This document shows, in pieces, positions 1,468-64,000 of a DNA stretch of 64,000 nucleotides (positions within the stretch are counted from its first letter, which is position 1; the number at the start of each line of letters is the position of its first letter). The DNA is from Patiria pectinifera (taxonomy: Eukaryota > Echinodermata > Asteroidea > Valvatida > Asterinidae): contig CM057148.1 of NCBI GenBank assembly GCA_029964075.1, positions 25,785,916 to 25,849,915 of the forward strand. Direction: 5' to 3'. The position numbers were made by a program, and so were the translations under genes. The notes below the pieces were generated by a model. That model did no database searches. It was not told the DNA's origin and saw only the letters and a list, made by a program, of their open reading frames with translations.

Positions 1468-1513
1468 ATGGACGGAGCAGTAGCTTGGATTCTGATGGTA
1501 TCATCACTGACAG
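1468..1513 (+). CDS. Gene A exon 1, signal peptide
   Basis: ATG opens MDGAVAWILMVSSLT and one further base precedes GTAGGT, a good splice donor in phase 1. The same exon recurs almost unchanged at 15546, 38146 and 54059, and the intron start is also conserved at 15592. The short acidic start followed by a hydrophobic run fits a secretory signal completed by the first residues of exon 2. Confidence 0.75.
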
Positions 1514-8870: not shown

Positions 8871-8966
8871 TGTTTTGTCTATCAGATGTTTATAAAAGTG
8901 TTTAGCTTTAAAAATTCGGAACCCGTAAATGTGTTGAATACCTTGCATTGAGAAGCTGGACCGTGA

Positions 8967-9152: not shown

Positions 9153-9159
9153 GCTGGAG

Positions 9160-9479: not shown

Positions 9480-9890
9480 TGGAGCAGTAAAGCCTGACAA
9501 ATTGTTCGCTCCTTGGCACGAACAGTTCTTTAACGTAAAATCAAATTGCAATCTGCAATATTAATTGTGTGCGGATTGTAACTCGCTGCATATCGTTTTC
9601 TATAGATTTATTGCTTCTAGTGTTTATGGGATGGCCATATCTAGACAAACCTTGATTGCTTCACGGGTTGTTTATTACAGGAAGAAGCTTCAGTTCCCAT
9701 CTGGTGCTGCACATTTACATATCGATTTCTGGCTTTTTACAACTTGGATTTCTTGTTGCTTTTTAAGACGATATTTCGTTAAATCGAGAACGGCAGAATC
9801 AGTCAGGATTTCTCATTGGTTCATGCATTACCCGCTTTCATGCGCTGCTCACGGTTTCCTGAGAGATTGCTAAAAAATGAAGCAGATCAA
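9480..9890 (+). repeat. Copy of a dispersed upstream module
   Basis: Contains TAACTCGCTGCA, GATCGTTTTCTA, a GTTTATGG...CTAGAC segment and CGATTTCTGGCT. Related copies are at 35400-35800, 37370-37620, 37625-37900, 51760-52180, 53280-53525 and 53530-53830. The 102-codon frame here is not conserved between copies, so coding is doubtful. Confidence 0.6.
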
Positions 9891-14125: not shown

Positions 14126-15239
14126 ATGCGACAAGGGCTAGGCGTTCTCTGCCAGCGTGAACGAATAATGATAATTAAAAATTAAAACACAGAGAAGCTC
14201 TTCAAACATTAATTTCTCTCAGCACTGCGCTTCAGTGAATTACACAGTTACGGAGAAAGGAATATGGCGCAAAATTCATTTCTTCCCATTAAAAAAAACG
14301 ATTTCCTTTGTGTGTGTCCCTGTAAATGCCGAATTATTAATGGTACATGTCATCAGAGTTAACACGACATATATATTATCGCACATGATCCACCCACCAG
14401 GCAGTTATTTTTTGCGGGGGTTGGGATGTTCTTTTTTCCCCAGTGTTTTTTGTTTGTTATTGAAGCTGTTTTTCTTCGTACCTTTCTTATTTATGCAGAT
14501 ACTAGTGACTCGTAAGAATGAGCGTCGCGAGAGTAGCAGGCTAAATATGATAATAAAAACACAAGATGGTCGCAAACAATATTATCTAATTAAATATATC
14601 TCACCCTTCACCAAACCATCCCCTCCCCTTGTCGATATTTATACTGCCGGTAATTTCTGAAATTCCTGGCTCACGATATAGGGGCGTCGTATCCTCCCAA
14701 TTCCCCAATAATATTTTGGTGAGGGACAAGAACGCGGTGACTCCCCCAATCCTCGCAATACTTGGTCCCAGAGGATATTATTGTAACAAAATTAAAAGAA
14801 TCTTCACAATATTATTACCTCCCAGTATTACCGGTGAAAGGTGTTGCTCTTTTAACACCCATTGTCCGTTGATTCAACAATGGGAGGAATAGACGTAAAA
14901 CGTGTACATGCAGACATGCAAGTATGAACAGCGCCCCTTTAGTAAGGTGTCGTCTTCCCCCACCCCTTTTCTAAGCCGTTGGTTCCCCGCATGCTGGTAA
15001 GAATTGGCCACTGTTGGTACTTGTCGCTATATAGGTGATTTTACAATTTAAAACCACTCAACCTTCTCCTCGATACAATTGTATTTTATTCAAATGTCTA
15101 ATCAAAAAAAATTTCCGAATTTTACCTAAAATTCCGAAAAAAAGTCGTGGAAGTTAATCTAGGCTATTGAAACACGCACTGTGAGTGTCACAAAGGGTGT
15201 AATGGCCACTCTAATACTATATTGCGCCGTTAACATTTC
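14126..15239 (+). other. Upstream flank of gene B
   Basis: From about 14500 it is the duplicate of 290-1199. The 141-codon frame at 14235 lies largely before this and has low-complexity Phe/Leu content. I do not call it a gene. Confidence 0.5.
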
Positions 15240-15545
15240 GCATTCACATTAATATCTCACACAGGTACTCCGGTGTTCGAAATTGATAAATACAACTGTC
15301 GAATAAAGCAATTGATTGCAATATTACCAGCTCCCACTTAAACCCCGCCTATCTTGTTAACGTGTGCCAATAAAAGAAAGAATACGATTGATCTAGTTCG
15401 TGCTCTTTCCTGATTGGCTGGTTGGTAATGACGTCATCCTGTTTAGTGGTGTGCGAAGCGAAGCTGCCAGGGAGAGCTGGGGTGGTCTGTGTGCACGGTG
15501 ATATACCATCAACCTGACGGATTCTGGATCATTGCATTTGTGACA
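15240..15545 (+). promoter_or_regulatory. Conserved upstream region of gene B, with CRE
   Basis: Same arrangement as gene A: a reverse ATTGG (GATTGGCTGG) and a perfect TGACGTCA at 15429-15436, 117 bases before the ATG. CREB/ATF-type factors bind this palindrome, so stimulus-linked control is possible but inferred. Confidence 0.5.
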
Positions 15546-15591
15546 ATGGACGGAGCAGTAGCTTGGATTCTGATGGTATCATCACTGGCAG
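15546..15591 (+). CDS. Gene B exon 1, signal peptide
   Basis: Encodes MDGAVAWILMVSSLA plus one base, then GTAGGT. It differs from gene A at one position, where Thr is replaced by Ala. The preceding 300 bp are also conserved with gene A. Confidence 0.75.
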
Positions 15592-38145: not shown

Positions 38146-38191
38146 ATGGACGGAGCAGTAGCTTGGATTCTGATGGCATCAGCAGTGGCAG
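38146..38191 (+). CDS. Gene C exon 1, signal peptide
   Basis: Encodes MDGAVAWILMASAVA plus one base, then the donor GTAGGC. The upstream 200 bp match the truncated copy at 54059. Confidence 0.75.
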
Positions 38192-44100: not shown

Positions 44101-47100
44101 ACATTTGAAATTGTTTGTTTTTCTGGTTGGTAGTTTCGTAAGCGTACTATGATTCAAGTATATGTTTGCTATTTTTTTTTTCCTTTTTATCAATATGGTG
44201 TTTTTGTAAGGCGGCAGAACGCTATGCCCCAATCTATAACAAATCAAGTTGTCTACTGACACTCATTCAAAAGTGCCATGTTTTGTCGACCGCTAACTTA
44301 AAAAGTTGACTATCCATGACAAATTCTTGGTAGCGCACTACATTGCGAATCGCCCGAATTGATCCAGTGATCATTGCACTAACCTCTGGCCTACTGTGGC
44401 AGCTTGACAAAAACTTTTAAAAAGGCTTAAACGTCATGTTTCTTTCTTTCAGATGAATAAACATATTTTTTTTCATCGAGCCTGCTAATATATTCATGAA
44501 ATTGCTTCATCTGCCTGGGAAAAAAATTGTACGGTTTTATTTATTATCGGTTTTGAACCACAACCTTTTAATTCAATTCGGAAAAAAATGTAATAAATGG
44601 TAACCTCTCAGGAGCAACTATCACGATATCCACCAATGATTATTATTGATTTTGTCTTTTAATTCAAAGCTCTCTTTGTTGTTGTGGAGAGCGAGGCGAG
44701 GACGTGTTACTTCGGTCCCCCACCGGAACCTGATCCTGACAATCCAGATGACTGGATGAAGCAAGTCATGCGAGAGGTACGGGAACGTTGCCCGGGAAGG
44801 ATGCAACCTACCCCAGCTGATACTTGGAAACCTACCCAAACGGGTACGGGGAAACCTTCCCCAGCTGGTTCGGGGAAACCAACCACGCCAGCTGGTACGG
44901 GAGAACCGACCCCAAATAGTGCGGGGAAATCAACCACAGGCGGTACGGAGGAACTTACCACAGCCGGTACGGGGGAACCTACCACAGCTGGTACGGAGGA
45001 ACCTACCACAGCCAGTACGGAGGATCCTACCACAGCTGGTAAGTTAACCAACGATTGTGAGGACCATCGGATCAGGCACAGGAGAGATCGCATTAGGCTT
45101 ATTAAAATAAACCAGTTTTATATTTCAGGAGTAGCCCAGTCTTCATTGGATTGTTTCGAATATTAAATTTCCGTGATGTGAGCATTGGTGACCAGCCATA
45201 TCATAAAGAAGAATTACCCCAACCTTTGACTTTCCAAGTTACTTACATCATGTTAAAGCGCAAATCATTGGCTTTCCAATGATACCAAATTTATTTCTGT
45301 AACTTTAATTTATTCCAAAGAACTGCTACGGGAACTTGAACAGTGTCCCGCCGAAATTTCGCCAACCCCACTTCGAGAAAAACGGCTATGAAAAAAAAAA
45401 AGAAATACGCATTGCACCGCGAACAGCAGTGGAAAACTTCTTCAGTTTCCAACTTTTGGGGATTTTTTTTTCTCAACAAAAATGCATAGTGTGAATCAAA
45501 AGAACATGGTGAAATCTATTTCGTTGATCAGCAGGACTTCATTAAACACAATATAAGAAAGACATTGTATTTTAAGGTGATATAAAAATTGAAATTCCCC
45601 AGATTCGAATCCGAATTCTATAGCATTGTGAAAAGCTACCTAACCTAAGAGCTATATGAACCTAACGCATCAGTTCGAGACGATGCCACGCTTCCTTTGT
45701 AAAATCTAATTCAAATCACATGACTGCTTATTAAATCACACGTGTATTAAACGCAAATGCCTTCAGTAGCCTGCTGAAAAAAGTGCTAACGTAGCACGTG
45801 TGATTTAATACTCCAGTCTTGGGCCAAGACCTGCTTACGGCTGTTGGAGAGTCTCCGTCCCCAGCCGAAAAGTGAAGGCGCACAAAGATCTTCAGGATTT
45901 ACTCCCGTGCTTTGCTAATTAAAATTGAATTCATTTCAATCTAGCAATGCGTCCATATCCTAATACCTGAATCAGCCGACGACAATATCATTTACACACG
46001 CATGGGTCATCTGGGTTAGCTGACCACATTGTGTTAGTTTCCGATCCTCCCCCAACAAAAATATTAAACAAAATGTGAAGGGGGGGCGTGCGATTTGATA
46101 TTTAAACAATGATTTGGTTTGTATTCTTGCTTGGCCGCAATAGCAGAGTGTTCAGAGCCTCTTGGAATGGAGGACGGGACAATCCCTGATGATCACATCA
46201 CGGCGTCCAGTTCTTTTTTATGTTGCCCACCCAAGTTTGGACGGTTTAACAGTGGCGGTGTATGGAAACCATCGAGGTAGGTAACAAAGGAAACCATCGT
46301 TAGCTACCACAAATTACACCCAACACTAATTACATCTATATTTGACCTTACAAAGACAAAAGACATTTCATTCAATCTGATTTTATTTTAGTCTTAGCCG
46401 ACAAAGTAGTTTATTTAACGAAATCAACTACTTTTTGTTTATTTAATATGTCTGCCACTCCCTCAATTACTGTTTTTCAAGGTTGCCCTGCAAGTCCGGT
46501 TTCCCGGTCCCTACACTATTAAATCTGATAGGAGGGGCGGAAACCAGTCTACCCTGAGACAACTTCATTATTTTCGGGCAGCAATTAATTGGACATTTAT
46601 TTCGTCATTATTCCTTAAATAGAAGAAGGCCGATACCTTTGTCTAATGACTCATTCAAAATTGAGTAAGTTCTGCATTTGTAGAAAGATTTCAATTGAAA
46701 AGATTTTTTTTTTGTGGATGAAGGTCAAAAAAGTACTGATAAAGCTTAAATGAACTCCACTAAGAACATTAATATATAAAGTGTTGACACATTCAGATTA
46801 AAAGTTTTGAAATGCTTCAATGGTTTAATCGCGTTCAGTTTTTGTCAATCCCTCTCCTGATAAAAGCGGGTGGTTTTTGCGGAGCATGTTTATTTCATTG
46901 TTCCACACCTCTATCCACTCTGTGTACACAGCAATGAAGGTTCCTGGATCGAGGTGGACCTGGCCACCAGTACTGTGGTGTCTGGCGTCATCACAAAAAG
47001 CCGGACAAACAGCGGGAATCCTGGATATGTAACGAAGTACAAAGTGTCCTTTAGGAAGCAGTCCACATCCAATTCCACATATGTGACAGATGCAAACGGA

Positions 47101-47695
47101 AACGCCAAGGTACTTTGAACACAATTTTCTTTCTTTTTAGCCCACCTTTTTGTATTATCAAATAAAAGCATCCACGTACCCGTCAACCGCTACGAGTGGA
47201 AATACCCCATCACCCTCTTTTATCCAATATTACCAATAAAACGAAATTAAGAAATTGCTCGCTTTGAAGAACACCCACGTATATAGTACCTAATTGAGAA
47301 CAGCCAGACGTTGTATGCAGCCCCCTTGCTTCTGTTTTGTATTGTGGCGGCTGGGTGAGCGCAGACAAATTGCTGGCTACCTTCCGCCGAGAAATGGTCT
47401 GTCAGTGATCCTCGCCAACGAAGTACGTACGGTACTGATAACATTATGAAGGATTTGTTTCCAACTAATTTCCAAGAAAGTGTCTCCCTTCTTCCAATAT
47501 TTTCACAGTTATAAAGATAAAACCTGTATTCGTATGCTTCTGTTGCAGGTGTTCACGGGTAACATTGATCATTACACCCCGGTCATTAACATGTTTGATG
47601 AGAGCGTGGTGGCGACTGTAGTGCGCATTGCGCCTACCGATTGGTATGTCCACGTTCGTCTGCAACTGGAGTTGCTTGGATGTCGCCGTGATTGA
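38146..47695 (+). CDS. Gene C: secreted T/P/G-stalk protein with F5/8C discoidin domain
   Basis: Exons at 38146-38191, 44670-45038, 46144-46276, 46932-47109 and 47549-47695 total 873 bp, in frame throughout, for about 290 residues. The signal peptide exon is the family one. Exon 2 is different from A and B: it has two Cys, an acidic/proline start (P-P-P-E-P-D-P-D) and a short stalk of degenerate octapeptides around P-T-T-A-G-T-G-E. The discoidin exons are very close to gene B, including their introns, so the duplication that made B and C is recent at that end. The predicted product is secreted, with a short O-glycosylated linker and a lectin-like domain. Intron 1 is long because of inserted elements. 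A shorter isoform using 45129-45166 as last exon would lack the discoidin domain. Confidence 0.72.
38192..39812 (+). other. Gene C intron 1, first part
   Basis: Contains sequence related to gene B intron 20460-20830 and short palindromes near 39225-39305 (AATCGTGGAC and GTCCACGATT). No exon is seen. Confidence 0.5.
39813..40522 (-). mobile_element. 5'-truncated RTE-like LINE in intron 1 of gene C
   Basis: The minus strand encodes G-L-K-M-N-M-K-K-T-K-V-M, D-E-Y-I-Y-L-G-Q-K-I, V-L-T-Y-G-A-E-T-W, R-A-M-E-R-I-M-I-G-V and W-A-G-H-V-M-R-R, ending W-I-E-L-D-stop. This is the C-terminal part of RTE-type endonuclease/reverse transcriptases. The 3' tail is a short ATG-repeat tract. A perfect 10-bp target duplication TGATGTGTAT flanks it at 39803-39812 and 40523-40532. 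The frame is intact over the 700 bp, so the insertion is fairly young. Confidence 0.88.
41070..41819. mobile_element. Composite hairpin/TIR element in intron 1 of gene C
   Basis: Same plan as 16231-17327: a hairpin at 41070-41232 with GCTTCGCCTCGTGAAATGGA at its tip, a TIR unit at 41243-41648 (32-bp ends starting ACACCTGAATAAATCC), and a hairpin at 41659-41819 with GGCTTCGCCTC at its tip. The preceding 40770-41060 resembles 16900-17150. Confidence 0.75.
41820..43159 (+). other. Gene C intron 1, middle part
   Basis: Three to four degenerate copies of a stretch with GAAACCGTCAA and ACTCGTTG...AATAACTC, at about 40640, 42060, 42430 and 42720. AT-rich and non-coding as far as can be seen. Confidence 0.5.
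43160..43360 (+). CDS. Possible small secreted-peptide ORF or foreign exon
   Basis: From ATG at 43160 the frame reads M-I-S-V-W-M-I-L-C-S-F, then N-K-C-A-E-P-G-C, an acidic/basic helix-like part, K-R-R-K and a Tyr/Gly-rich tail ending Q-Y-G-I. A hydrophobic start, two close Cys and a multibasic site resemble a peptide precursor, but no family is recognised. CCTTTAG inside the frame could instead be a splice acceptor. It lies within gene C intron 1, next to a CpG-rich stretch near 43400-43450. It could be chance. Confidence 0.22.
   Translation: MISVWMILCSFRTEELGRWDIRENKCAEPGCFLVQTLGNMLKKEEDQKNRNKRRKQYIGGPYQYGI
43990..44369. mobile_element. Element with 45-bp imperfect inverted repeats
   Basis: TTCAATTCGGGCGATTCRCA and TGCGCYACCAAG occur at 43995-44034 and, inverted, at 44324-44365. 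It is probably a non-autonomous element. The 63-codon frame from 43917 overlaps one arm. Confidence 0.5.
44670..45038 (+). CDS. Gene C exon 2, alternative stalk module
   Basis: The acceptor TTCAAAG at 44669 leaves two bases that complete an Ala codon after exon 1, giving A-L-F-V-V-V-E-S-E-A-R-T-C as the end of the signal region. Octapeptide-like units P-T-T-A-G-T-(G/E)-E follow. The donor GCTG|GTAAGT is strong and in phase 1, so this exon is also symmetric and exchangeable with exon 2 of A and B. Confidence 0.7.
45129..45166 (+). CDS. Gene C candidate alternative terminal exon
   Basis: Acceptor TATTTCAG, then G-V-A-Q-S-S-L-D-C-F-E-Y-stop in phase 1, matching 5807-5844 of gene A. Use of it would leave a 90-bp intron and remove the discoidin exons. 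Confidence 0.38.
46144..46276 (+). CDS. Gene C exon 3, N-terminal F5/8C domain
   Basis: Encodes E-C-S-E-P-L-G-M-E-D-G-T-I-P-D-D-H-I-T-A-S-S, ending V-W-K-P-S, donor AG|GTAGGT in phase 2. The acceptor is CAATAG. A CAG three bases further on is an alternative in the same phase. Confidence 0.78.
46932..47109 (+). CDS. Gene C exon 4, central F5/8C domain
   Basis: The acceptor TACACAG joins to S-N-E-G-S-W-I-E-V-D-L, followed by V-V-S-G-V-I-T-K-S and Y-K-V-S-F-R-K. It ends G-N-A-K|GTACTT in phase 0. It probably carries the ancestral acceptor that gene B has lost. Confidence 0.8.
47549..47695 (+). CDS. Gene C exon 5, C-terminal F5/8C domain and stop
   Basis: After CTGTTGCAG, encodes V-F-T-G-N-I-D, T-P-V-I-N-M-F, V-V-R-I-A-P-T-D-W and E-L-L-G-C-R-R-D then TGA. 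Confidence 0.82.
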   Translation: MFTGNIDHYTPVINMFDESVVATVVRIAPTDWYVHVRLQLELLGCRRD

Positions 47696-47818
47696 TTGGG
47701 CTGAATCAGTGGTATTTTGATCTTTTGTTTTGGCAAGATGGCATTACAATATACATTTGACCAAACGCATTAAGGCAGAGCCAGACGGCAATGGTTTGGT
47801 ACCGCTTGGACAGGCATG

Positions 47819-47824
47819 AATAAA
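47819..47824 (+). terminator. Likely polyadenylation signal of gene C
   Basis: AATAAA lies 124 bases after the stop codon. The aligned position after gene A reads AATATA, a weak variant, and the segment is deleted after gene B. Confidence 0.45.
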
Positions 47825-48129
47825 CGGTTGTGTATTAGCGTTACTAGATTAAAACAACAAAGAACACATCTGAGGTAGCTGGAATGCATAAGGTCTATGG
47901 CAACATGAGTGCGATAGAAATATGACCTTTTTGGCGATATTCAAAGACGATAATTCAATAAGGTCGTGACAGTCATACTAATGAGCATACTGTGAAATAT
48001 GTAACCACTGAATAATATGCACAAAATTCGTAGTCCGGGTTGCAATTATTGGGTGACAAAAGTTAACCGTAAAACAGTAAAAGCAAACAAACAGAAACAC
48101 AAACAAACAAATGAAAAACAGGAAAAAAC

Positions 48130-50990
48130 ATAAACAAAACCAGAGACACAACCAAAACACCTGAACAATAAGCCTATATGTACTGATGACTTCGCACTCT
48201 GTTTACATGTGTGCTTTCATATGGGAACCTGGTTGGAATGACGGTTTCGTAGAACCACAGAAAAGCACACACGAAAACAAAGTGTGATGCCATCAGTACG
48301 GATGCAGATTCAGGTTGACTGTAAATTTAAATCAAATTACAAGTTGCGGTTGACCTTAATTTTGACCTAGACATACATTTCAATACAATATGTATATAGA
48401 GAATCCTTGCTCACATAAATATATTGTAAATACTTGTACTGTATTAACACAGTGTTAGCAAATCAATTTCATCTTTTATGATCAGTTATTATTTAAATGC
48501 ACCAATATTGATAACTGTGGCACTTATTATAACAGATTTGACTATTTAACGCGTTCAAAATTACGCAAAACAAATGCGTTCGAACATTGAATTGGTTGTT
48601 TGCTTAGTGTGTAAGAAAAGAAAAAAAATACTAATTTTGAAATTGTGTTCGGTGAAAATTTTTGTAGAGGTACTTAATACCTTTTTAGTATGAGAGTTTG
48701 TCTCAATCTTTTGGGTTTTTTTTTTTAAACCTTTCGGTTCAAATGTTATCGTATTACTACTTATTTCGTTTTTGTTCTTGAAATCAGTATAAGTACAGTT
48801 ATGCTTAAATTTTATGAAATTGTTTAGGTCTGTATAATCCGAGTTCGTAAAGTCGGGGAACGCAATGTCATGGTACTGATATGCAAACTAAATATCTGGA
48901 ATAATATTTCATTATTTGAATTCAACAAAAATGTCACGACACTAAAGTGACAAATGTAATATCTACCGCAGTCAAAATTAAGAAAACAATGCACTTGATT
49001 TCGTGATTGTTGCGCTGTTTTATATGCCTAAGTAATTGAGAAAGAGAAGAACATGTAAAAACTGTATTCGGGGACAAAGTTCACCATTGAAGGCCGGTTC
49101 ATTCTTCACGCGAATGCAAATGCAAAGTGAATCTAACAAGTGAATTTGCAAGTTTAAATGTGTTCACCTTCTTTTTTTTGAATTCGCAGCACGAATACTT
49201 GCCGTGATGTCACATTTTCACGTTCGCATTCGCTTTTGTGGCGAGTGTGAACCGGCCTTTACGCAGGGTTCGTCAACAGTTCGAGTGTGTTAGTTTCAAT
49301 CATTTCGAATGATGGTAACTCCTATAGATTGTCGGTTCAAATATGTTTGTTTTGATCATTTAGTTCATTATTTAAAAAAATAAAAATATAAAACAAAGAC
49401 ATTTAATTATTACCAAATAAGCCATATGATACGCCATAGCCCAGGTGGTTTTTTTTTTAGAATTCTTTCGAAACATGTTGGCTTCAAAAAAGCGTGTGTT
49501 TTGAAATTCAATTTCATTCTTGATGTATTAAGCTTATGTATAAGCCTTTGTCGTTAAACCTCGCTGTAAAAAAAAGAAGCTAGAAAGTAGCCTAAGGCAA
49601 TAATAAATGCAAACTAACAGAAACACAAACAAACACATACAAACAAGGAAAAAAAACAAAAAAACAACGGCACAACTAAAACACCTGAACAATAAGCCTA
49701 CATGTACTGATGACGTCGCACTTTGTTTACATGTGTGCTTTCATATGGGAACCTGGTTGGGATGACCGATTCTTAGAAGCACAGAAAAGCACACACGTAA
49801 ACAAAGTGTGATGCCATCAGAACGGATGCAGATTCATGTTGACTGTCAATTTAAATTAAATTATACACGTTTCGGTTAACCTTAGTTGTGACCTAGACAT
49901 ATATTCCAATACTTTTGTATATAGAGAATCCTTGTTTACATAAATATAATGTAAATACTTGTGACGTATATAGATAGTGTTAGCAAATCAAATTTCATCT
50001 TTTAATATCGTGAATTATTTCAATGCACTAATATTAATAATTGTGGCACTACATATGACAAATTTTACTATTTCACGCGTTCAAAATTACGCAAAACAAA
50101 TGCGTTTGAACATCTCATTAGTTGAGCGCTTAGTGTGTAAGAAAGAAAAAAGTACTCGTTTTAAAATGTGTCCGGTGAAAATGTTCATTTTTGTAGAGGT
50201 ACATAACACCTTTTTAGTATGAGAGTTTGTCTCAATCTTTCGAGGGTATTTCAAAACCTTTCGGTTCAGATGTTATCGTATTACTGCTTATTTATTTATT
50301 TTTCTTGAAAACAGTTTAAGTAGTTGTACTTAAACTTTTATGAAATTTTTTAGCTCTGTATAATCCGAATTCGTTAAGTCGGGGAATGCAATGTCATGGT
50401 ACTGATAAGCAAACTAAATATCTGGAATAATATTTCATTATTTGAATTCAACGAAATTGTCAGGACACTAAAGTGACAAATTTAATATCTAACGCAGTCA
50501 AAATAACACCAACAATGCACCTGAATTCGTGATTGTTGCTCTGTTTTGTAAGCCTTAGTAATTGAGAAAGAGAAGAACATGTAAAAACTGTGTTCGGGGA
50601 CAAAGTTCAACATTGAAGGCCGGTTCATTCTTCACGCAAATGCAAATGCAAAGAGAATCTAACAGTGAATTTACAAGTTTAAATGTATTCACTCTTTTGT
50701 TTCGAATCCTCAGCGCGAATACTTGCCGTGATGTCACATTTTCACCTTTGCATCCGCTTTTGTACCGAATGTTAACCGGCTGTTACGCAGGGTTCGTCAA
50801 CAGTTCGAGTGTGTTAGTTTCAATCTTTTAGAATGATGGTAACTCTAAGACATATTTGGTTCATATATGTTTGTTTTGCTCATTTAATTCCCTATTTCGA
50901 AAAATAAAGATAGCAAAGACACTAATGTTTCGTCTATTAGATTTTTATAAAAATGTTTAGCTGTATGAATTAAGAACCCGTAAATTTATT
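48130..50990 (+). repeat. 3'-flank repeat, tandem copies 4 and 5 (after gene C)
   Basis: Two head-to-tail copies of about 1.5 kb start near 48130 and 49680. Each begins with AACAAACA-rich sequence and contains the ACACCTGAACAATAAG and CAGATTCA blocks. Nothing coding is seen. Confidence 0.65.
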
Positions 50991-51155
50991 GATTACCTGT
51001 CATTAAGAAGTTGAACTGGCGCGGATCTACAGTTATAATAATTATAGTAAACATCATCTATATGTCCGCCTGTCCGCAACAATCGGACATAAAAACAATT
51101 TGATAGGCCTAACCCCCCCCCCCCCTGCAAAAATCTTGATTCGTCCCTGCTACAG

Positions 51156-51382
51156 CAGGGGCGGATCCAGAATACAGTATTTTTTTGAGGGGGGGGGGGA
51201 TTTGGTCCTTTCAAAAATTGGGTCAAAAAAATTACAGCGTGGGTTTTTTTTTTCAGGAAAAGATGGTGGTGTACGCAGTGCCTGACTTTATTGCGACGTC
51301 ACTTAAAAAACAAAATGGGTTCGGGTTTTTTTTTTGGGGGGGGGGGGTAATGGCCACCGTTGGCCCCCTGGATCCGCACTTA
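51156..51382. mobile_element. GGGGCGGATCC-type non-autonomous element
   Basis: Bounded by CAGGGGCGGATCCAG and CTGGATCCGCACTT, the duplicate of 35178-35401, so inserted before the C/D segment duplicated. Confidence 0.65.
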
Positions 51383-53879
51383 TGCTGGAGTAGTAAAGCC
51401 TGACAAATTGTTCGCTCCTATATTATTGGTACGATTGGTGCGATTTGTTAAGCCCTTCATCTTTTGAAGTACTAGTCCCATTGGCTTGAAACTTGGTATG
51501 TAGGGAGAGAAGGACTTGTTATAGATGAGCATTAATGTAACGTCAGGATGATGTGGCCGAATGATTTTATATGATCTTTAAACGTTTTGACCCATATACA
51601 TTAAATGTGCAGACGAAAATTCTTCATTCGGAATAATTTTTTTTTTTTGCAAGTGGTTCTCTTATATGTTTTGTAATAAATGTAAATGACATCATAATGA
51701 CGTTATCATGTGTCATGTGACGTCATATTAAAGGTGTTAATCGTTTTATGGTGTGTATTAGATAGCAAAGCCTTACAAATCGTTCGCTCCTTGGTACGAA
51801 CATTTCTTAAAGGTAACATAAAAATTGCAATATCTGCAATACTTGTGCAAATTGCAACTCGCTGCAGATCGTTTCTAAAAATCCATTGTTCCAGTGTTTA
51901 CGGAGGTTTCCATATTCTAGACCAACTTGATTACTGCTGGGGCTCTGTGTTTATTACCGGAAGAAGCTTCGGTTCGCATGCTGGCCGCGCCGTTTCATAT
52001 CGATTTCTGGCTGTTTACGACTTCGTGGATTTTTGTTCGGACAAAAATTGTACTGGTTCATGCGTTACCCGCTTCCAGAGCTGCTTACCTGTTTATTGCA
52101 ATATTGGTCAAGCTGGAGCAGATCAAATTTTCTTTGACCCCAACTACTTGCATAATAATTTCAATGCGCAGAGTAAGTAATTAGCTGTTCTGGCAACGAG
52201 CCTCAACAGTCTTGTTTTCGATATTTTTTTTTCTTTTTTCTTTTACCATTCTTCTCCATAGACTTTATACACTTGCTTTCTTCATCTCACTTTTACACAT
52301 TCGAATTACCTTTTTGAAGCCCTTCTTTATTTAAATTACAACTCCTATTGGCTTGAAAACTGGTATGTACATAGACGTGGACGCGTTACAGATGATCATT
52401 AAACTTAAAGTGACGTCAAGATGTGTGATCGAGTGATTTTATATGAAGTTGTGACCAATAAACGTGTATGTTGCAAACAAAAATGCTAAATTTATTGATC
52501 TGTTTGTAATAGGATCTGTAATAGTTTTTGTAAAAAGGTTAAAATGTTAGTGGCATCATGATGACGTTTTCATATGACGTCAAATTAAAGGTGATAATTG
52601 GAAGCCCTATATCTACGGAAGTAGAGTTCCAATGAAGTCGTAACTTTGTTTGTACATTAACAAGGAGGTGTTGCGGGTGAAGATTGCAGTGACGTCATGA
52701 TGAAATCATTTTGTGTGACGGGACATTAAAAAGGTTAAATTTTGATGTCTCTTTTCACTGGAATAACAGGTCCTATTCAATTGAAACTGTTTTCCAAAGG
52801 ACTGCCTGGAAGGTCGGCCAATTCCTTGAGAATCGTAACACATATATGAAAATAAAATCATGTAAATAACAGCCGAAACAGATGTGTTTGTTCACGTGAC
52901 AAACCCACCTCCCTTTGTGCAATTGTAATTTTTTGTCAGTGTTTTCAACGTCTCCGGTCTTAAAGATGACTGTCAGTGCAACAATTTCGATTTTGTTGCT
53001 CCTCATAAATTTGACCCGAGGAGAAATTTGATTTTAACGATGTCCACTTTTTCTGAGTGTCTGCAGAGTTCAGAGAAAAAAACCGGTATTTGGTGTTGCT
53101 TTTTAGCACAAAGACATCATCCTTGTGAGTAGACTTGCTCCCAATCCCTCATTATCAGTTTCACAGTTTACCCTGCTCGAACTACATGTATATTATTTTC
53201 TGTCAGCAAATACATTTGCAAGTAACTAATCCATAACAAATGCTTCCTTCGCCTGTTTGCTATCTCTATGAGATAGCAAAGCCTCACACATCGTTTGCTG
53301 CTTGGTACGAGCAGTTCTTAAGGGTAAAATCAAAATTGCAATATCTGCAATATTTATGCGAATTGTAACTCGCTTCAGATCGTTTTCTAAAGATCCATTG
53401 TTTCTAGTGTTTATGGAGGTTTACGTATCTAGACCAACTTGATTGCTACTGGGAGTCTGTTTTTATTTCCGTAAGAAGCTTCACTTTGCATGCGGTGCCG
53501 CGCCATTTCATCAATTTCTGACTAAATTATGATTTCACAAATTGTAATTGCAATATCTGTAATATTGTGCGAATTGCAACTCGCTGTAGATCGTTTTTAA
53601 AAGATCCATTGTTTCTACTGTTTACGGAGGTTTCCATATTCTAGACCAACCTTGATTGCCGCTGGGTTTCTGTGTTTATTAACGGAAGAAGTTTCAGTTC
53701 GCGTGGAGTCATGCCGTTTCATATTGATTTCTGTCTGTTTACGGCTGCTTGTGGGGGCTTTTTGATCAAATTAGAGACGATATTTTGTTACCCCGAAAAC
53801 AGCGCAATCAACAATGAGTTCTCATTTGCTGATGCGTTACAAGCCTCATGTATAAGCTGCGCCCACACTGTATATTTGA

Positions 53880-54058
53880 TCCAATGAAAACGCATCAACC
53901 TTCAATTTAAACTCAGGATCTCTCCTACGTGGCTAGATATTTCGTTATTGTGATGACGTCATCCTGTTTGGTGGTTTGCGGAGCTGCCGAAAAACGAATA
54001 GGTGCGGCTTGTGTTATACGATGCAACTGACAGATTCTCGATCATTGCATCAGGGAGA
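53880..54058 (+). promoter_or_regulatory. Conserved upstream region of truncated gene D
   Basis: Nearly identical to the gene C upstream region, with CCAAT and TGACGTCA intact. If active it would now transcribe into the satellite array. Confidence 0.5.
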
Positions 54059-54106
54059 ATGGACGGAGCAGTAGCTTGGATTCATCCGCTATCCAACAAG
54101 CTATAG
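54059..54106 (+). pseudogene. Gene D: exon 1 truncated by satellite
   Basis: The first eight codons (MDGAVAWI) and the upstream region match gene C. The sequence then switches to satellite at the shared ATTC (54080-54083), and the frame stops after seven satellite-derived codons. The splice donor is gone, so no family protein can be made from here unless the rest of the gene lies beyond the array. Confidence 0.85.
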
Positions 54107-57100
54107 TTTGTCAAAATCCATCCATGTTAAGGTACCTTTAGACCGCGACACATGAGAGCCATGTCAGCTGGCGCTCACAGCCCTTGCTATCGGACTGACA
54201 GCACAAAAACCAAACTGGGGCATCATGTACCTACGTCTGGGGCTTACTCCAAAAGTTTCAAGCCTCAAGCCTTGCCGAGTTGCCAGCTTGTTGGACTATT
54301 CATCCGCTATCCAACAAGCTATAGTTTGTCAAAATCCATTCATGTTAAGGTACTTTTAGACCGCGACACATGAGAGCCATGTCGGCTGGCGCTGACAGCC
54401 CTTGCTATGGGACTTACTGCACAAAAACGAAACTGGGGGCATCATGTACCTACGTTTTGGGCTCACTCCAAAAGTTTCAAGTCTGAAGCCTTGCCGATTT
54501 GTTAGCTTGTTGGCTTATTCATCTGCTATGCAACAAGTAATAGTTTGTCAAAATCTATACATGTTAAGGTACTTTTAGAACGCGACACAAGAGAGCCATG
54601 TCGGCAGGCGCTGACAGCCCTTGCTATGGGACTTACTGCACAAAAACGAAACTGGGGGCATCATGTACCTACGTCTTGGGCTCACTCCAAAACGTTCAAG
54701 TCTGAAGCCTTGCCGATTTGTTAGCTTGTTGGCTTATTCATCCGCTATCCAAGAAGCTATAATTTGTCAAAATTCATCTATGTTAAGGTACTTTTAGACC
54801 GCGACACATGAGAACCATGTCGGCTGGCGCTGACAGCCCTTGCTATGGGACTTACTGCACAAAAACGAAACTGGGGGCATCATGTACCTACGTCTGGAGC
54901 TCACTCCAAAAGTTTCAAGTCTGAAGCCATGCCGATTTGTCAGCTTGTTGACCCATTCATCCTCCATCCAACAAGTTATTGTTTGTCAAAATCTATCCAT
55001 GATAAGGTACCTTTAGACCGCGACACATGAGAGCCATGTCGGCTGGCGCTGACAGACATTGATATGGGACTGACTGCACAAAAACGAAACTGGGGGCATC
55101 ATGTACCTACGTCTGGGGCTCACTCCAAAAGTTTCAAGCCTCAAGCCTTGCCGATTAGCCAGCTTGTTGGACTATTCATCCGCTATCAAACAAGCTATAG
55201 TTTGTCAAAATCCATTCATGTTAAGGTACTTTTAGACCGCGACACATGAGAGCCATGTCAGCTGGCGCTGACAGCCCTTGCTATGGGACTTACTGCACAC
55301 AAACGAAACTGGGGGCATCATGTACCTACGTTTTGGGCTCACTCCAAAAGTTGCAAGTCTGAAGCCTTGCCGATTTGTTAGCTTGTTGGCTTATTCATCT
55401 GCTATCCAAGAAGCTATAATTTGTCAACATTCATCCATGTTAAGGTACTTTTAGACCGCGACACATGAGAGCCATGTCGGCAGGCGCTGACAGCCCTTGC
55501 TATGGGACTTACTGCACAAAAACGAAACTGGGGGCATCATGTACCTACGTCTTGGGCTCACTCCAAAAGTTTCAAGTCTGAAGCCTTGCCGATTTGTCAG
55601 CTTGTTGGCTTATTCATCCGCTATCCAACAAGCTATAGTTTGTCAAAATCCATCCATGTTAAGGTACTTTTAGACCGCGACACATGAGAACCATGTCGGC
55701 TGGCGCTGACAGCCCTTGCTATGGGACTTACTGCACAAAAACGAAACTGGGGGCATCATGTACCTACGTCTGGAGCTCACTCCAAAAGTTTCAAGTCTGA
55801 AGCCTTGCCGATTTGTCAGCTTGTTGGCTTATTCATCTGCTATCCAACAAGCTATAGTTTGTCAAAATCCATCTATGTTAAGGTACCTTTAGACCGCGAC
55901 ACATGAGAGCCATGTCGGCTGGCGCTGACAGCCCTTGCAATGGGACTTACTGCACAAAAACGAAACTGGGGGCATCATGTACCTACGTCTGGGGCTCACT
56001 CCAAAACGTTCAAGTCTGAAGCCTTGCCGATTTGTCAGCTTGTTGGCTTATTCATTTGCCATCCAACAAGCTATAGTTTGTCAAAATCCATCTATGATAA
56101 GGTACCTTTAGACCGCGACACATGAGAACCATGTCGGCTGGCGCTGACAGCCCTTGCTATGGGACTTACTGCACAAAAACGAAACTGGGGCATTATCTAC
56201 CTACGTCTGGAGCTCACTCCAAAAGTTTCAAGTCTGAAGCCTTGCCGATTTGTCAGCTTGTTAAACCATTCATCCGCCATCCAACAAGCTATAGTTTGTC
56301 AAAATCCATCCATGATAAGGTACCTTTAGACCGCGACACATGAGAGCCATGTCGGCTGGCGCTGACAGCCATTGATATGGGACTTACTGCACAAAAACGA
56401 AACTGGGGGCATCATGTACCTACGTCTGGGGCTCACTCCAAAAGTTTCAAGTCTGAAGCCTTGCCGATTTGTCAGCTTGTTGGACCATTCATCCGCCATC
56501 CAACAAGCTATAGTTTGTCAAAATCCATTCATGATAAGGTACTTTTAGACCGCGACACATGAGAGCCATGTCGGCTGGCGCTGACAGCCCTTGCTATGGG
56601 ACTTACTGCACAAAAACGAAACTGGGGGCATCATGTACCTACGTTTTGGGCTCACTCCAAAAGTTTCAAGACTGAACCCTTGCCGATTTGTAAGCTTGTT
56701 GGCCGATTCATCTGCTATCCAACAAGCTATAGTTTGTCAAAATCCATCCATGATAAGGTACCTTTAGACCGCGACACATGAGAGCCATGTCGGCTGGCGC
56801 TGACAGCCCTTGCTATGGGACTTACTGCACAAAAACGAAACTGGGGGCATCATGTACCTACGTCTGGGGCTCACTCCAAAAGTTTCAAGTCTGAAGCCTT
56901 GCCGATTTGTCAGCTTGTTGACCCATTCATCCGCCATCCAACAAGCTATAGTTTGTCAAAATCCATCCATGATAAGGTACCTTTAGACCGCGACACATGA
57001 GAGCCATGTCGGCTGGCGCTGACAGCCCTTGCTATGGGACTTACTGCACAAAAACGAAACTGGGGGCATCATGTACCTACGTCTGGAGCTCACTCCAAAA

Positions 57101-60100
57101 GTTTCAAGTCTGAAGCCTTGCCGATTTGTCAGCTTGTTGACCCATTCATCCGCCATCCAACAAGTTATAGTTTGTCAAAATCCATCCATGATAAGGTACC
57201 TTTAGACCGCGACACATGAGAGCCATGTCGGCTGGCGCTGACAGACCTTGCTATGGGACTTACTGCACAAAAACGAAACTGGGGGCATCATGTACCTACG
57301 TCTGGGGCTCACTCCAAAAGTTTCAAGTCTGAAGCCTTGCCGATTTGTCAGCTTGTTGACCCATTCATCCGCCATCTAACAAGCTATAGTTTGTCAAAAT
57401 CAATTCATGTTAAGGTACTTTTAGACCGCGACACATGAGAGCCATGTCGGCTGGCGCTGACAGCCCTTGCTATGGGACTTACTGCACAAAAACGAAACTG
57501 GGGGCATCATGTACCTACGTTTTGGACTCACTCCAAAAGTTTCAAGTCTGAAGCCATGCCGATTTGTCAGCTTGTTGAACCATTCATCCGCCATCCAACA
57601 AGCAATAGTTTGTCAAAATCCATTGATGATTAGGTACCTTTAGACCGCGACACATGAGAGCCTTGACGGCTGGCTCTGACAGCCCTCGCTATGAGACTTA
57701 CTGCACAAAAACGAAAATGGGGGCATCATGTACCTACGTCTGAAGCTCACTCCAAAAGTTGCAAGCCTGAAGCCTTCCCGATTTGTCAGCTTGTTTAACC
57801 ATTCATCCGCCATCCAACAAGCTATAGTTTGTCAAAATCCATCCATGATAAGGTACCTTTTGACCGCGACAAATGAGAGCCATGTCGGCTGCCGCTGACA
57901 GTCCTTGCTATGGGACTTACTGCACAAAAACGAAACTGGTGGCATCATATACATACGTCTGGGGCTCACTCCAAAAGTTTCAAGTCTGAAGCCTGGCCGA
58001 TTTGTCAGCTTGTTGAACCATTCATCTGCCATCCAACAAGCTATAGTTTGTCAAAATCCATTCATGATAAGGTACCTTAAGACTGCAACACTAGAGCCAT
58101 GTCGGCTGGCGCTGACAGCCCTTGGTATGGCACTTACTGCACAAAAACGAAACAAGGGGCATCATGTACATACGTCTGGGGCTCACTCCAAAAGTTTCAA
58201 GCCTGAAGCCTTGCCGATTTGTCAGCTTGTTAACCCATTCATCCGCCATCCAACGAGCTATAGGTTGTCAAAATCCATTCATTATAAGGTACCTTTAGAC
58301 CGCAACACATGAAAGACATGTCGGCTGGCGCTGACAGCCCTTGCTATGAGACTTACTGAACAAAATGAAACTGGGGGCATCATGTACATACGTCTGAGAC
58401 TCACTCCAAAAGCTTCAAGTCTGAAGCCTTGCCGATTGGTCAGCTTGTTAACCCATTCATCCGCCATCCAACAAGCTATAGTTTGTCCAAATCCATCTAT
58501 GATAAGGTACCTTTAGACCGCGACACATGAGAGCCACGTCGGCTGGCGCTGACAGCCCTTGCTATAACTTTCTGCACAAAAACGAAACTGGGGTATCATA
58601 TACCTACGTCTGGGGCTCACTCCAAAAGTTTCAAGTCTGAAGCCTTGCAGATTTGTCAGCTTGTTGACCCATTCATCCGCCATCCACGAAGCTATAGCTT
58701 ATCAAAATCCATCCATGATAAGGTACCTTTAGACCGCGACACATAAGAGCCATGTCGGCTGGCGCTGTTAGACCTTGCTAAGGGACTTACTGCACAAAAA
58801 CGAAACAGTGGGCATCATGTACCTACGTCTGGGGCTCACTCCAAAAGTTTCAAGTCTGAAGCCTTGCCGATTTGTCAGCTTGTTGACCCATTCATCCGCC
58901 ATCCAACAAGCTATAGTTTGTCAAAATCCATCCATGATAAGGTACCTTTAGACCGCGACACATGAGAGCCATGTCGGCTGGCGCTGACAGCCCTTGCTAT
59001 GGGACTTACTGCACAAAAACGAAACTGGGGGCATCATGTACATACGTCTGGGGCTCACTCCAAAAGTTTCAAGTCTGAAGCCTTGCCGATTTGTCAGCTT
59101 GTTGACCCATTCATCTGCCATCCAACAAGCTATAGTTTGTCAAAATCCATTCATGATAAGGTACCTTTAGACCGCGACACATGAGAGCCATGTCGGCTGG
59201 CGCTGACAGCCCTTGCTATGGGACTTACTGCACAAAAACGAAACTGGGGGCATCATGTACCTACGTCTGGGGCTCACTCCAAAAGTTTCAAGTCTGAAGC
59301 CTTGCCGATTTGTCAGCTTGTTGACCCATTCATCCGCCATCCAACAAGCTATAGTTTGTCAAAATCCATTCATGATAAGGTACCTTTAGACCGCGACACA
59401 TGAGAGCCATGTCGGCTGGCGCTGACAGCCCTTGCTATGGGACTTACTGCACAAAAACGAAACTGGGGGCATCATGTACATACGTCTGGGGCTCACTCCA
59501 AAAGTTTCAAGTCTGAAGCCTTGCCGATTTGTCAGCTTGTTAACCCATTCATCCGCCATCCAACAAGCTATAGTTTGTCAAAATCCATCCATGATAAGGT
59601 ACCTTTAGACCGCGACACATGAGAGCCATGTCGGCTGGCGCTGACAGCCCTTGCTATGGGACTTACTGCACAAAAACGAAACTGGGGGCATCATGTACCT
59701 ACGTCTGGGGCTCACTCCAAAAGTTTCAAGTCTGAAGCCTTGCCGATTTGTCAGCTTGTTGACCCATTCATCCGCCATCCAACAAGCTATAGTTTGTCAA
59801 AATCCATCCATGATAAGGTACCTTTAGACCGCGACACATGAGAGCCATGTCGGCTGGCGCTGACAGCCCTTGCTATGGGACTTACTGCACAAAAACGAAA
59901 CTGGGGGCATCATGTACCTACGTCTGGAGCTCACTCCAAAAGTTTCAAGTCTGAAGCCTTGCCGATTTGTCAGCTTGTTGACCCATTCATCTGCCATCCA
60001 ACAAGCTATAGTTTGTCAAAATCCATCCATGATAAGGTACCTTTAGACCGCGACACATGAGAGCCATGTCGGCTGGCGCTGACAGCCCTTGCTATGGGAC

Positions 60101-63100
60101 TTACTGCACAAAAACGAAACTGGGGGCATCATGTACCTACGTCTGGGGCTCACTCCAAAAGTTTCAAGTCTGAAGCCTTGCCGATTTGTCAGCTTGTTAA
60201 CCCATTCATCCGCCATCCAACAAGCTATAGTTTGTCAAAATCCATTTATGATAAGGTACCTTTAGACCGCGACACATGAGAGCCATGTCGGCTGGCGCTG
60301 ACAGCCCTTGCTATGGGACTTACTGCACAAAAACGAAACTGGGGGCATCATGTACCTACGTCTGGGGCTCACTCCAAAAGTTTCAAGTCTGAAGCCTTGC
60401 CGATTTGTCAGCTTGTTGACCCATTCATCCGCCATCCAACAAGCTATAGTTTGTCAAAATCCATCCATGATAAGGTACCTTTAGACCGCGACACATGAGA
60501 GCCATGTCGGCTGGCGCTGACAGCCCTTGCTATGGGACTTACTGCACAAAACGAAACTGGGGGCATCATGTACATACGTCTGGGGCTCACTCCAAAAGTT
60601 TCAAGTCTGAAGCCTTGCCGATTTGTCAGCTTGTTGACCCATTCATCCGCCATCCAACAAGCTATAGTTTGTCAAAATCCATCCATGATAAGGTACCTTT
60701 AGACCGCGACACATGAGAGCCATGTCGGCTGGCGCTGACAGCCCTTGCTATGGGACTTACTGCACAAAAACGAAACTGGGGGCATCATGTACCTACGTCT
60801 GGGGCTCACTCCAAAAGTTTCAAGTCTGAAGCCTTGCCGATTTGTCAGCTTGTTGACCCATTCATCCGCCATCCAACAAGCTATAGTTTGTCAAAATCCA
60901 TCCATGATAAGGTACCTTTAGACCGCGACACATGAGAGCCATGTCGGCTGGCGCTGACAGCCCTTGCTATGGGACTTACTGCACAAAAACGAAACTGGGG
61001 GCATCATGTACCTACGTCTGGGGCTCACTCCAAAAGTTTCAAGTCTGAAGCCTTGCCGATTTGTCAGCTTGTTGACCCATTCATCCGCCATCCAACAAGC
61101 TATAGTTTGTCAAAATCCATCCATGATGAGGTACCTTTAGACCGCGACACATGAGAGCCATGTCGGCTGGCGCTGACAGCCCTTGCTATGGGACTTACTG
61201 CACAAAAACGAAACTGGGGGCTTCTTGCACCTACGTCTGGGGCTCACTCCAAAAGTTTCAAGTCTGAAGCCTTGCCGATTTGTCAGCTTGTTAATCCATT
61301 CATCCGCCATCCAACAAGGTATAGTTTGTCAAAATTCATTTATGATAAGGTACCTTTGGACCGCGACACATGAGTGCCATGTCGGCTGGCGCTGACAGCC
61401 CTTGCTATGGCACTTACTGTACAAAAACGAAACTGGGGGCATCATGTACCTACGTCTGGAGCTCACTCCAAAAGTTTCAAGTCTGAAGCCTTGCCGATTT
61501 GTCAGCTTGTTGACCCATTCATCTGCCATCCAACAAGTTATAGTTAGTCAAAATCCATCCATGATAAGGTACCTTTAGACCGCGACACATGAGAGCCATG
61601 TCGGCTGGCGCTGACAGCCCATGCTATGGGACTTAATGCACAAAATGAAACTGGGGGCATCATTTACCTACGTCTGGGGCTCACTCCAAAAGTTTCAAGT
61701 CTGAAGCCTTGCCGATTTGTCAGCTTGTTAAACCATTCATCCGCCATCCAACAAGTTATAGTTTGTCAAAATCCATTTATGATAAGGTACCTTTAGACCG
61801 CGACACATGAGTGCCATGTCGGCTGGCGCTTTCAGCCCTTGCTATGGCATTTACTGTACAAAAACGAAACTGGGGGCATCATGTACCTACGTCTGGAGCT
61901 CACTCCAAAAGTTTCAAGTCTGAAGCCTTGCCGATTTGTCAGCTTGTTGACCCATTCATCCGCCATCCAACAAGCTATAGTTTGTCAAAATCCATCCATG
62001 ATAAGGTACCTTTAGACCGCGACACATGAGAGCCATGTCGGCTGGCGCTGACAGCCCTTGCTATGGGACTTACTGCACAAAAACGAAACTGGGGCATCAT
62101 GTACCTACGTCTGGGGCTCACTCCAAAAGTTTCAAGTCTGAAGCCTTGCCGATTTGTCAGCTTGTTAACCCATTCATCCGCCATCCAACAAGTTATAGTT
62201 TGTCAAAATCCATCCATGATAAGGTACCTTTAGACCGCGACACATGAGAGCCATGTCGGCTGGCGCTGACAGCCCTTGCTATGGGACTTACTGCACAAAA
62301 ACGAAACTGGGGGCATCATGTACCTACGTCTGGGGCTCACTCCAAAAGTTTCAAGTCTGAAGCCTTGCCGATTTGTCAGCTTGTTGACCCATTCATCCGC
62401 CATCCAACAAGCTATAGTTTGTCAAAATCCATCCATGATAAGGTACCTTTAGACCGCGACACATGAGAGCCATGTCGGCTGGCGCTGACAGCCCTTGCTA
62501 TGGGACTTACTGCACAAAAACGAAACTGGGGCATCATGTACCTACGTCTGGGGCTCACTCCAAAAGTTTCAAGTCTGAAGCCTTGCCGATTTGTCAGCTT
62601 GTTAACCCATTCATCCGCCATCCAACAAGGTATAGTTTGTCAAAATTCATTTATGATAAGGTACCTTTGGACCGCGACACATGAGTGCCATGTCGGCTGG
62701 CGCTGACAGCCCTTGCTATGGCACTTACTGTACAAAAACGAAACTGGGGGCATCATGTACCTACGTCTGGGGCTCACTCCAAAAGTTTCAAGTCTGAAGC
62801 CTTGCCGATTTGTCAGCTTGTTGATCCATTCATCCGCCATCCAACAAGCTATAGTTTGTCAAAATCCATCCATGATAAGGTACCTTTAGACCGCGACACA
62901 TGAGAGCCATGTCGGCTGGCGCTGACAGCCCTTGCTATGGGACTTACTGCACAAAAACGAAACTGGGGGCATCATGTACCTACGTCTGGGGCTCACTCCA
63001 AAAGTTTCAAGTCTGAAGCCTTGCCGATTTGTCAGCTTGTTGACCCATTCATCCGCCATCCAACAAGCTATAGTTTGTCAAAATCCATCCATGATAAGGT

Positions 63101-64000
63101 ACCTTTAGACCGCGACACATGAGAGCCATGTCGGCTGGCGCTGACAGCCCTTGCTATGGGACTTACTGCACAAAAACGAAACTGGGGGCATCATGTACCT
63201 ACGTCTGGGGCTCACTCCAAAAGTTTCAAGTCTGAAGCCTTGCCGATTTGTCAGCTTGTTAACCCATTCATCCGCCATCCAACAAGCTATAGTTTGTCAA
63301 AATCCATTTATGATAAGGTACCTTTAGACCGCGACACATGAGAGCCATGTCGGCTGGCGCTGACAGCCCTTGCTATGGGACTTACTGCACAAAACGAAAC
63401 TGGGGCATCATGTACCTACGTCTGGGGCTCACTCCAAAAGTTTCAAGTCTGAAGCCTTGCCGATTTGTCAGCTTGTTGACCCATTCATCCGCCATCCAAC
63501 AAGCTATAGTTTGTCAAAATCCATCCATGATAAGGTACCTTTAGACCGCGACACATGAGAGCCATGTCGGCTGGCGCTGACAGCCCTTGCTATGGGACTT
63601 ACTGCACAAAAACGAAACTGGGGCATCATGTACCTACGTCTGGGGCTCACTCCAAAAGTTTCAAGTCTGAAGCCTTGCCGATTTGTCAGCTTGTTGAACC
63701 ATTCATCCGCCATCCAACAAGCTATAGTTTGTCAAAATCCATCCATGATAAGGTACCTTTAGACCGCGACACATGAGAGCCATGTCGGCTGGCGCTGACA
63801 GCCCTTGCTATGGGACTTACTGCACAAAACGAAACTGGGGGCATCATGTACCTACGTCTGGGGCTCACTCCAAAAGTTTCAAGTCTGAAGCCTTGCCGAT
63901 TTGTCAGCTTGTTGACCCATTCATCCGCCATCCAACAAGCTATAGTTTGTCAAAATCCATCCATGATAAGGTACCTTTAGACCGCGACACATGAGAGCCA
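54080..64000 (+). repeat. 219-bp tandem satellite, about 45 units, running off the window
   Basis: Units are 219 bp (some 218) and share GGTACCTTTAGACCGCGACA and GACAGCCCTTGCTATGGGAC. Because 219 is a multiple of three, each unit keeps a 61-codon open frame on the plus strand, ending at the TGA of ACACATGAGAG. Many also keep a 69-codon frame on the minus strand. The first seven or so units and those at 57650-58760 are more diverged. Units from 58900 onward are nearly uniform. No match to a known protein is recognised, so I treat the frames as by-products. The array begins inside exon 1 of gene D. Confidence 0.95.
57650..58760 (+). repeat. Diverged island within the satellite
   Basis: About five consecutive units carry many private changes and small indels, such as loss of the GGGACTT start region and changed ACATGAGAG. 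Units on both sides conform to the consensus. The island may mark an old array edge buried by later expansion. Confidence 0.6.

Follow-up and report, generated by a model that had tools for sequence, protein, structure and literature searches.

Introduction

In common bean, the Co-2 resistance gene cluster lies within the khipu satellite, and genes and satellite have been duplicated together (PMC6102362). In bivalves, arrays of the satellite phBglII400 show abrupt junctions located in palindromes, 13 of 16 breakpoints falling in the longer palindrome and the remainder in the shorter one (PMC5139131). The TCAST satellite of Tribolium is found near or within genes, and insertion of a retroelement into a satellite array as well as circle-based spread have been proposed there (PMC3411249). 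In yeast, tandem duplication of CUP1 arises by unequal nonhomologous recombination between sites of little or no homology (PMC4232551).

At the locus analysed in this study, the first exon of a gene, called gene D, runs into a large array of a 219-bp satellite. Like khipu/Co-2, this locus combines a fast-changing gene family having satellite among its copies with joint segmental duplications and interchromosomal exchange. However, khipu is subtelomeric and its genes encode plant immune receptors, whereas the family considered here is one of secreted proteins residing mostly on one chromosome. Furthermore, unlike in the khipu/Co-2 excerpt (PMC6102362), the satellite here cuts the gene within exon 1. 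The switch is abrupt, as in phBglII400, with the junctions there lying in palindromes and the D join lying in a hairpin loop (PMC5139131). Unlike the edges described for phBglII400, array edges here occur at several unit positions, and among the edges seen only that of D falls in the loop. Satellite beside or within genes and a retroelement within a satellite array, the latter as a proposal in the case of Tribolium, are features in common with TCAST. However, TCAST elements are intronic or intergenic, and the word exon is absent from the text available, so that no exon-satellite fusion is described there (PMC3411249). As with CUP1, a duplication, here a proposed one, would have begun by the joining of sites with little or no homology. 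However, the CUP1 excerpt involves no satellite, and its repeat units are ~1.2-2 kb long around a single gene (PMC4232551). By analogy, the gene D case fits these known kinds of satellite/gene rearrangement. In the portion of the open-licence literature that was searched, no exon-satellite fusion of this particular kind was met.

Because the point at which the coding exon gives way to the large array is defined to the base, the join provides a firm test case. The presence of a counterpart of D and of satellite-bearing relatives on the same chromosome makes a role of the satellite in block duplication directly testable. If the satellite takes part, the locus connects satellite DNA with the growth of a gene family located mostly on one chromosome; if not, it is a gene truncation of the ordinary sort, situated where a repeat-rich domain begins.

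Gene family and exon structure

The window, i.e. the whole stretch of 64,000 nucleotides that was analysed, corresponds to C20:25785916-25849915, and the genome searched comprises 613.5 Mb in 1020 contigs. The features around the gene starts and the join are as follows.

1468..1513, + strand: exon 1 of gene A, with exon 2 from 3880
15546..15591, + strand: exon 1 of gene B, with exon 2 from 18722
38146..38191, + strand: exon 1 of gene C, the closest paralogue of D in the window, with a different exon-2 type in frame at 44670
54059..54083, + strand: exon 1 of gene D, cut short (from ATG to ATTC) but with its first seven codons complete
54080..54083, + strand: ATTC common to exon and satellite at the join (microhomology)
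54080..64000, + strand: in-window part of the 219-bp satellite array (Tandem Repeats Finder, period 219)

Exon 1 (46 nt) joins exon 2 in frame in genes A and B to give MDGAVAWILMVSSL(T/A)VLA-SCHKVC... The product of gene A starts with MDGAVAWILMVSSLTVLA-SCHKVCFIGSEYNPQ... and continues into a cysteine-bearing domain, and the translated exon 1 fits a signal-peptide-like start. Pfam returned no family for the five window reading frames tested. Of 225 candidate matches to the exon-2 domain, 150 are scored matches, and 72 of the 75 strongest are on C20. A 30-base exon-1 pattern allowing up to 3 mismatches is found at 68 places, 65 of them on C20; gene D itself has 4 mismatches to this pattern and falls outside that count. 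The genes at 1468-20107 are thus members of a secreted-protein family concentrated on one chromosome (C20), whose first exon is strongly conserved and which carries a cysteine domain.

Gene C carries the same signal exon together with a different second exon (SEARTCYFGPPPEP...) at 44670. It looks as if the upstream region and the signal exon were common to unrelated mature parts. Further downstream, genes A and B have long in-frame 18-bp minisatellites, which code for Thr/Ala/Gly-rich stretches and extend over 4114-5426 and 18956-20028, respectively.

The join between exon 1 of gene D and the satellite

Positions 54059-54083 read ATGGACGGAGCAGTAGCTTGGATTC, and the satellite follows immediately. 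Codon 8 (ATT) is common to exon and satellite, and the fused D frame reads MDGAVAWIHPLSNKL before it reaches a stop, 15 codons in all. Genes D and C are 93.4% identical over 52960-54083, and the similarity ends at 54083. In the four-way alignment of A to D, gene D departs from its paralogues right after ATTC. An earlier note on this DNA had claimed that the satellite begins within a signal-peptide exon and that gene D switches to it at codon 8 with the 4 bases ATTC at the join. The switch is borne out by the direct run of ATGGACGGAGCAGTAGCTTGGATTC into the 219-bp repeat, by the end of the paralogue match at 54083 and by the A-D alignment, and the term signal-peptide exon fits the translated exon 1.

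A 17-base exon-1 start is present in 7 distinct copies in the DNA examined; six of them are normal, and D alone passes into satellite. Genome-wide, the 25-base exon-1 core is found in 18 exact copies when the next base is A, C or T, copies followed by G lying outside this count; 17 continue with T, as in the normal exon, and D alone continues with A. Because only D among these 18 copies continues with A, the join is confirmed as present in the assembly beyond chance. The join has the appearance of a gene that broke in one copy of a much-duplicated family and was then connected to satellite DNA, a tidy instance of a commonplace class of rearrangement.

Exon 1 of D could nevertheless be intact in the animal if the assembler had jumped from it into satellite. 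Runs of 500 N occur in or beside arrays on C2, C18 and at C20:28.14 Mb, and an unplaced 47-kb contig (C48) carries the 219-bp satellite in the three stretches sampled, in line with such an artefact. However, the 64-kb window is without any N, the join included, and just 4 bp are shared at the join. The structure of the array bears on this alternative as well.

The 219-bp array beside gene D

With downstream DNA added, Tandem Repeats Finder follows the array beyond the window to coordinate 76708, giving 102.4 copies. Its far end has two further components.

76709-78409: putative retroelement piece with reverse-transcriptase-like reading frames, its identity being read from the frames
78410-78559: last partial satellite unit and end of the array

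The array starts at unit position 1 and ends at unit position 150. Averaged over 8 units, identity to the consensus is 95.1% at one end and 95.8% at the other; central values mostly exceed 99%, apart from dips to 95.4% and 97.6%. As is typical of satellite DNA, the array is long and head-to-tail, with a homogenised centre and diverged edges. No higher-order repeat was found over the entire array; a weak 4-unit pattern (units 2-6, 4-8 and partly 1-5) is confined to the D edge.

Unit 1, at the join, has 93.6% identity to the consensus, as against 99-100% for most central units. It shows 13 differences from the consensus, 6 of which are absent from units 2-12. Because unit 1 is more diverged, as expected of an old natural array edge, an assembly artefact becomes a smaller concern, though it stays one. 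The units at the join belong to the diverged edge, whereas misjoins are expected in the homogeneous centre. We consider it unlikely that the join was made by the assembler.

The far end of the array passes without a gap into other repeats. The far side (L015-L016) contains more tandem arrays, with units of 142 bp, 225 bp and 68 bp among others, and forms a repeat-rich domain. The earlier note had proposed that the remaining exons of gene D be sought beyond the array, and this expectation was disappointed: no match to exon 2 of either the A type or the C type was found in the 87.6 kb starting at coordinate 76401, a stretch that includes 85.4 kb past the final unit of the array. None of the C20 exon-2 matches listed falls between 25804875 and 28143257. 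Matches of the far-side DNA to the window, E and F are mostly sequences that recur several times, and one unclassified match of 84 bases (76%) is to DNA between the two exons of E2.

These results bear on the possibility that an array, perhaps a circular multimer, was inserted into an intact gene D, whose 3' half would afterwards have been lost or displaced. Dispersal of excised satellite through rolling-circle replication has been proposed (PMC3411249). In addition, the start and the end of a small array on C1 fall at nearly one unit position (~154), as those of an inserted circle would, but its 1466 bases do not make whole units. In the 87.6 kb covered, the interrupted gene does not resume past the array, and a gene that continues there with an A-type or C-type exon 2 was rejected for this distance. 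Nor does the window array start and end at one unit position (1 versus 150). Both observations speak against insertion, which we regard as rather improbable.

Microhomology and the hairpin spacer

The satellite unit contains a spacer that can fold into a hairpin.

54285..54320, + strand: first full hairpin spacer of the array, with an 11-bp stem and a 14-base loop containing ATTC (DNA fold -10.5 kcal/mol, z -3.4)

Among random breakpoint pairs, at least 4 bases are shared in 1.5% (P = 0.015), which is weak by itself, and gapped similarity as high as that observed at the join is seen in 1.4% of random junctions (P = 0.014). When the exon site is held fixed, 6 of the 219 satellite positions score equally well, the true position included. 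The join has shared identity above chance, as microhomology-mediated junctions do, although the stretch is short. The suggestion of illegitimate recombination, made in the earlier note, stands as the best account of the join, given the 4-bp ATTC and the rarity of such sharing at random junctions.

On the satellite side, the D join cuts the loop of a hairpin with an 11-bp stem, equivalent to the spacer at 54285-54320. Two spacers folded as DNA gave -10.5 kcal/mol, with z of -3.8 and -3.4. The retroelement near the far end is inserted in the same kind of hairpin spacer as the D join; that so short a spacer should have been involved twice is a hint and nothing firmer.

The probable origin of the join is a break within exon 1 of D, followed by microhomology-mediated repair that connected it to a satellite unit. 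In such a process, a double-strand break would have occurred in exon 1 of gene D and would have been repaired by microhomology-mediated joining, or copying, at an ATTC exposed in the satellite hairpin loop. The array would then have expanded and been homogenised by unequal exchange, while the edge units would have retained old differences. This would explain the join, the missing 3' part of the gene and the divergence of the units at the edge. What is left of gene D is a copy without its tail, in which the upstream DNA and 7 codons are kept and the remainder is replaced by the array; C, E1 and F are homologous to it only as far as the join.

The 219-bp satellite elsewhere in the genome

Among the matches listed, the 219-bp unit is found on C1, C2, C3, C5, C6, C10, C12, C13, C18, C20 and C21 and on unplaced contigs, and its presence in arrays on several chromosomes is a further property of satellite DNA. 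Eight array starts, three on C2 and one each on C5, C10, C12, C13 and C21, enter at unit position 147 after a common flank (L027, L029, L031, L032 and L035-L038; six chromosomes); they were found via the pattern or the common flank, which makes the sampling biased, and the one on C12 is slightly irregular. Pattern sites with a preceding G (n = 8) comprise 4 true array starts and 4 point changes within arrays. Blind probes for array starts reached an edge in 1 of 6 cases (on C1), and those for array ends reached an edge in 4 of 13 cases and a gap in 1 of 13.

Array ends lie at unit positions 138, 150, 154, 62 and 38, on which grounds a single fixed array boundary everywhere was rejected. Two array ends leave the unit at position 138 into a common tail, 95% alike over 604 bp, and further long copies of this tail exist on C10, C13, C3 and C18 and on unplaced contigs. 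The common flanks and tails suggest that arrays have spread along with their edges. Because the D edge has neither the common head nor the common tail, it is probably a derived edge.

One copy of the common flank (L032:1425-1915) includes a stretch of ~490 bp with ends that are inverted-repeat-like by eye and with matches on many chromosomes; this stretch may be a short transposon nested in the common array flank. The small array at C1:19756854-19758319, read as two pieces (L047, L044) that lie 700 bases apart, starts and ends at near-identical unit positions, in the manner of an inserted circular multimer, and its right flank matches a repeat upstream of the C5 array head.

Gene0, gene0-prime and the E1 block

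A second block on C20 resembles the part of the window that ends at the join.

48059..54083, + strand: segment collinear with C20:28170445-28176497, ending in E1 exon 1 (88.4% over 6160 columns)

In total, C20:28163640-28176497 is collinear with window positions 44446-54083 and continues to exon 2 of E1, which is the counterpart of D with both exons. As in a tandem segmental duplication, the first copy (D) is cut at the join, and E1 runs past it to exon 2.

Two exon-2 relatives have satellite upstream. Exon 2 of gene0 is at C20:25775757, ~11.6 kb left of gene A exon 1, and is preceded by 3.9 units of 219-bp satellite in the same orientation. Exon 2 of gene0-prime is at 28.143 Mb and has satellite in the same orientation ~1.1 kb upstream, with a 500-N gap at C20:28141150-28141649 directly left of this 28.14-Mb satellite. 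With the satellite set aside, the two loci have 94.2% identity. No similarity to the gene0 left flank was seen in the 3150 bases on the left side of the gene0-prime gap. No exon 1 with up to 3 mismatches is present between D and gene0-prime or, for gene0, back to 18.9 Mb. As a control, the 72 strongest C20 exon-2 matches were examined for an exon 1 with up to 3 mismatches on the same strand in the 7 kb upstream; it is present for 31 of them and absent for 41. Conversely, among 37 C20 exon-1 copies (0-2 mismatches), 24 are accompanied by a listed exon 2 at a distance of up to 7 kb, whereas the other 13, including gene C, are not. Because 41 of the 72 exon-2 copies likewise lack a recognisable exon 1, its absence at gene0 and gene0-prime is uninformative, and the idea that D and gene0 are telling complementary halves of one gene was weakened by this control.

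Satellite subtypes give a mixed picture. When compared with 28 other loci, only the window array, the 28.14-Mb satellite and C48 have both 11C and 48A as the majority state; several of these 28 loci were drawn from the same arrays, and L030 on C6 is mixed for 11C/48A. By eye, the gene0 satellite is 11C/48A as well. Unlike gene0, 8 of the first 10 units adjoining D are 11T/48T, the state of most other arrays, and a simple derivation of the D-edge units from the gene0 satellite is unsupported by subtype. The best match of D units 1-10 is on another chromosome for 5, in the own array for 4 and tied for 1, from 412 other and 108 own units.

Within the general proposal of break and microhomology-mediated joining, one route would make use of gene0. 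The gene block would have been duplicated, and D exon 1 would have been joined to the satellite upstream of gene0 on the second copy, giving the order D-exon-1 / satellite / gene0-prime, with the 2.28 Mb that now separate the two sides stemming from a subsequent event or from an error in scaffolding. This route would account for three features: satellite flanks the order gene0-A-B-C-D on both sides; a second block contains gene0-prime together with a counterpart of D in which exon 2 is retained; and the left flank of gene0-prime, past the gap, is unlike that of gene0. Gene0-prime is preceded by satellite of the majority subtype of the window array, and a 500-N gap and 2.28 Mb separate it from D; a presumed single junction that is now split by 2.28 Mb speaks against the route, as do the gapless transition of the array's far end into other repeats and the better matches of 5 of the 10 D-edge units on another chromosome. 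As judged from the unit variants, the subtype partly agrees with it (11C/48A) and partly disagrees (11T/48T at the D edge). Its weight is lowered because so many exon-2 copies lack exon 1 in the control, and we put it forward only tentatively, as a possibility well short of an even chance.

The same proposal also covers the case in which D was broken in exon 1 and joined by deletion, inversion or translocation to an array with its own far end, gene0 being unrelated. The D-edge units are as similar to arrays on C3, C6 and C13 as to their own array. At the other end, the far-end units and an array end at C3:13.145 Mb have the variants 12T, 34C, 70T, 102G, 138A and 140T in common, and both arrays end at unit position 150. 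In addition, the repeats of the far flank cluster on C19, C21, C22 and C1. These observations favour such a rearrangement, which, however, can attribute the duplicated block and the satellite subtype common to gene0, D and gene0-prime only to coincidence. We give it a serious chance, a little under even.

A broader reading would make satellite between exons 1 and 2 of a secreted-protein gene a repeated breakpoint on C20, every round of joining leaving a block edged by a tailless exon 1 and a headless exon 2 with satellite in between, driving expansion of the family and letting stranded promoters transcribe satellite hairpins. It would link the expansion of the family to the concentration of its strongest exon-2 matches on C20 (72 of 75). 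We regard it as very improbable.

Upstream DNA of gene D

The DNA in front of the join has the following features.

53763..54058, + strand: promoter-proximal and 5' leader DNA of gene D, a putative promoter, aligned with A, B and C and with C, E and F
53954-53961: TGACGTCA element upstream of D, also in B and C

The earlier note placed a conserved promoter upstream of the join. The conservation holds, in that this DNA is conserved with C, E and F, but its promoter function is inferred only, and the shared TGACGTCA element carries little weight. Over 1093 aligned upstream columns, D has 33 private substitutions versus 24-27 in C, E and F; over the 126 columns up to the join, it has 0 versus 3-5. 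Because no private substitution is found in these 126 columns, the stranded promoter region of D shows no visible decay, which may reflect recency, constraint or chance. In the promoter-driven satellite transcription that the earlier note raised as a possibility, RNA would pass from exon 1 into the array. The array lies in sense orientation relative to the upstream region of D, and neither AATAAA nor ATTAAA occurs from 54084 to the window end.

The palindrome TGACGTCA is present at 32 sites in the 64-kb window, far above the expectation for a random 8-mer, and the presence of the motif in both B and C says little because of this frequency. Its abundance is probably due to carriage by a repeat.
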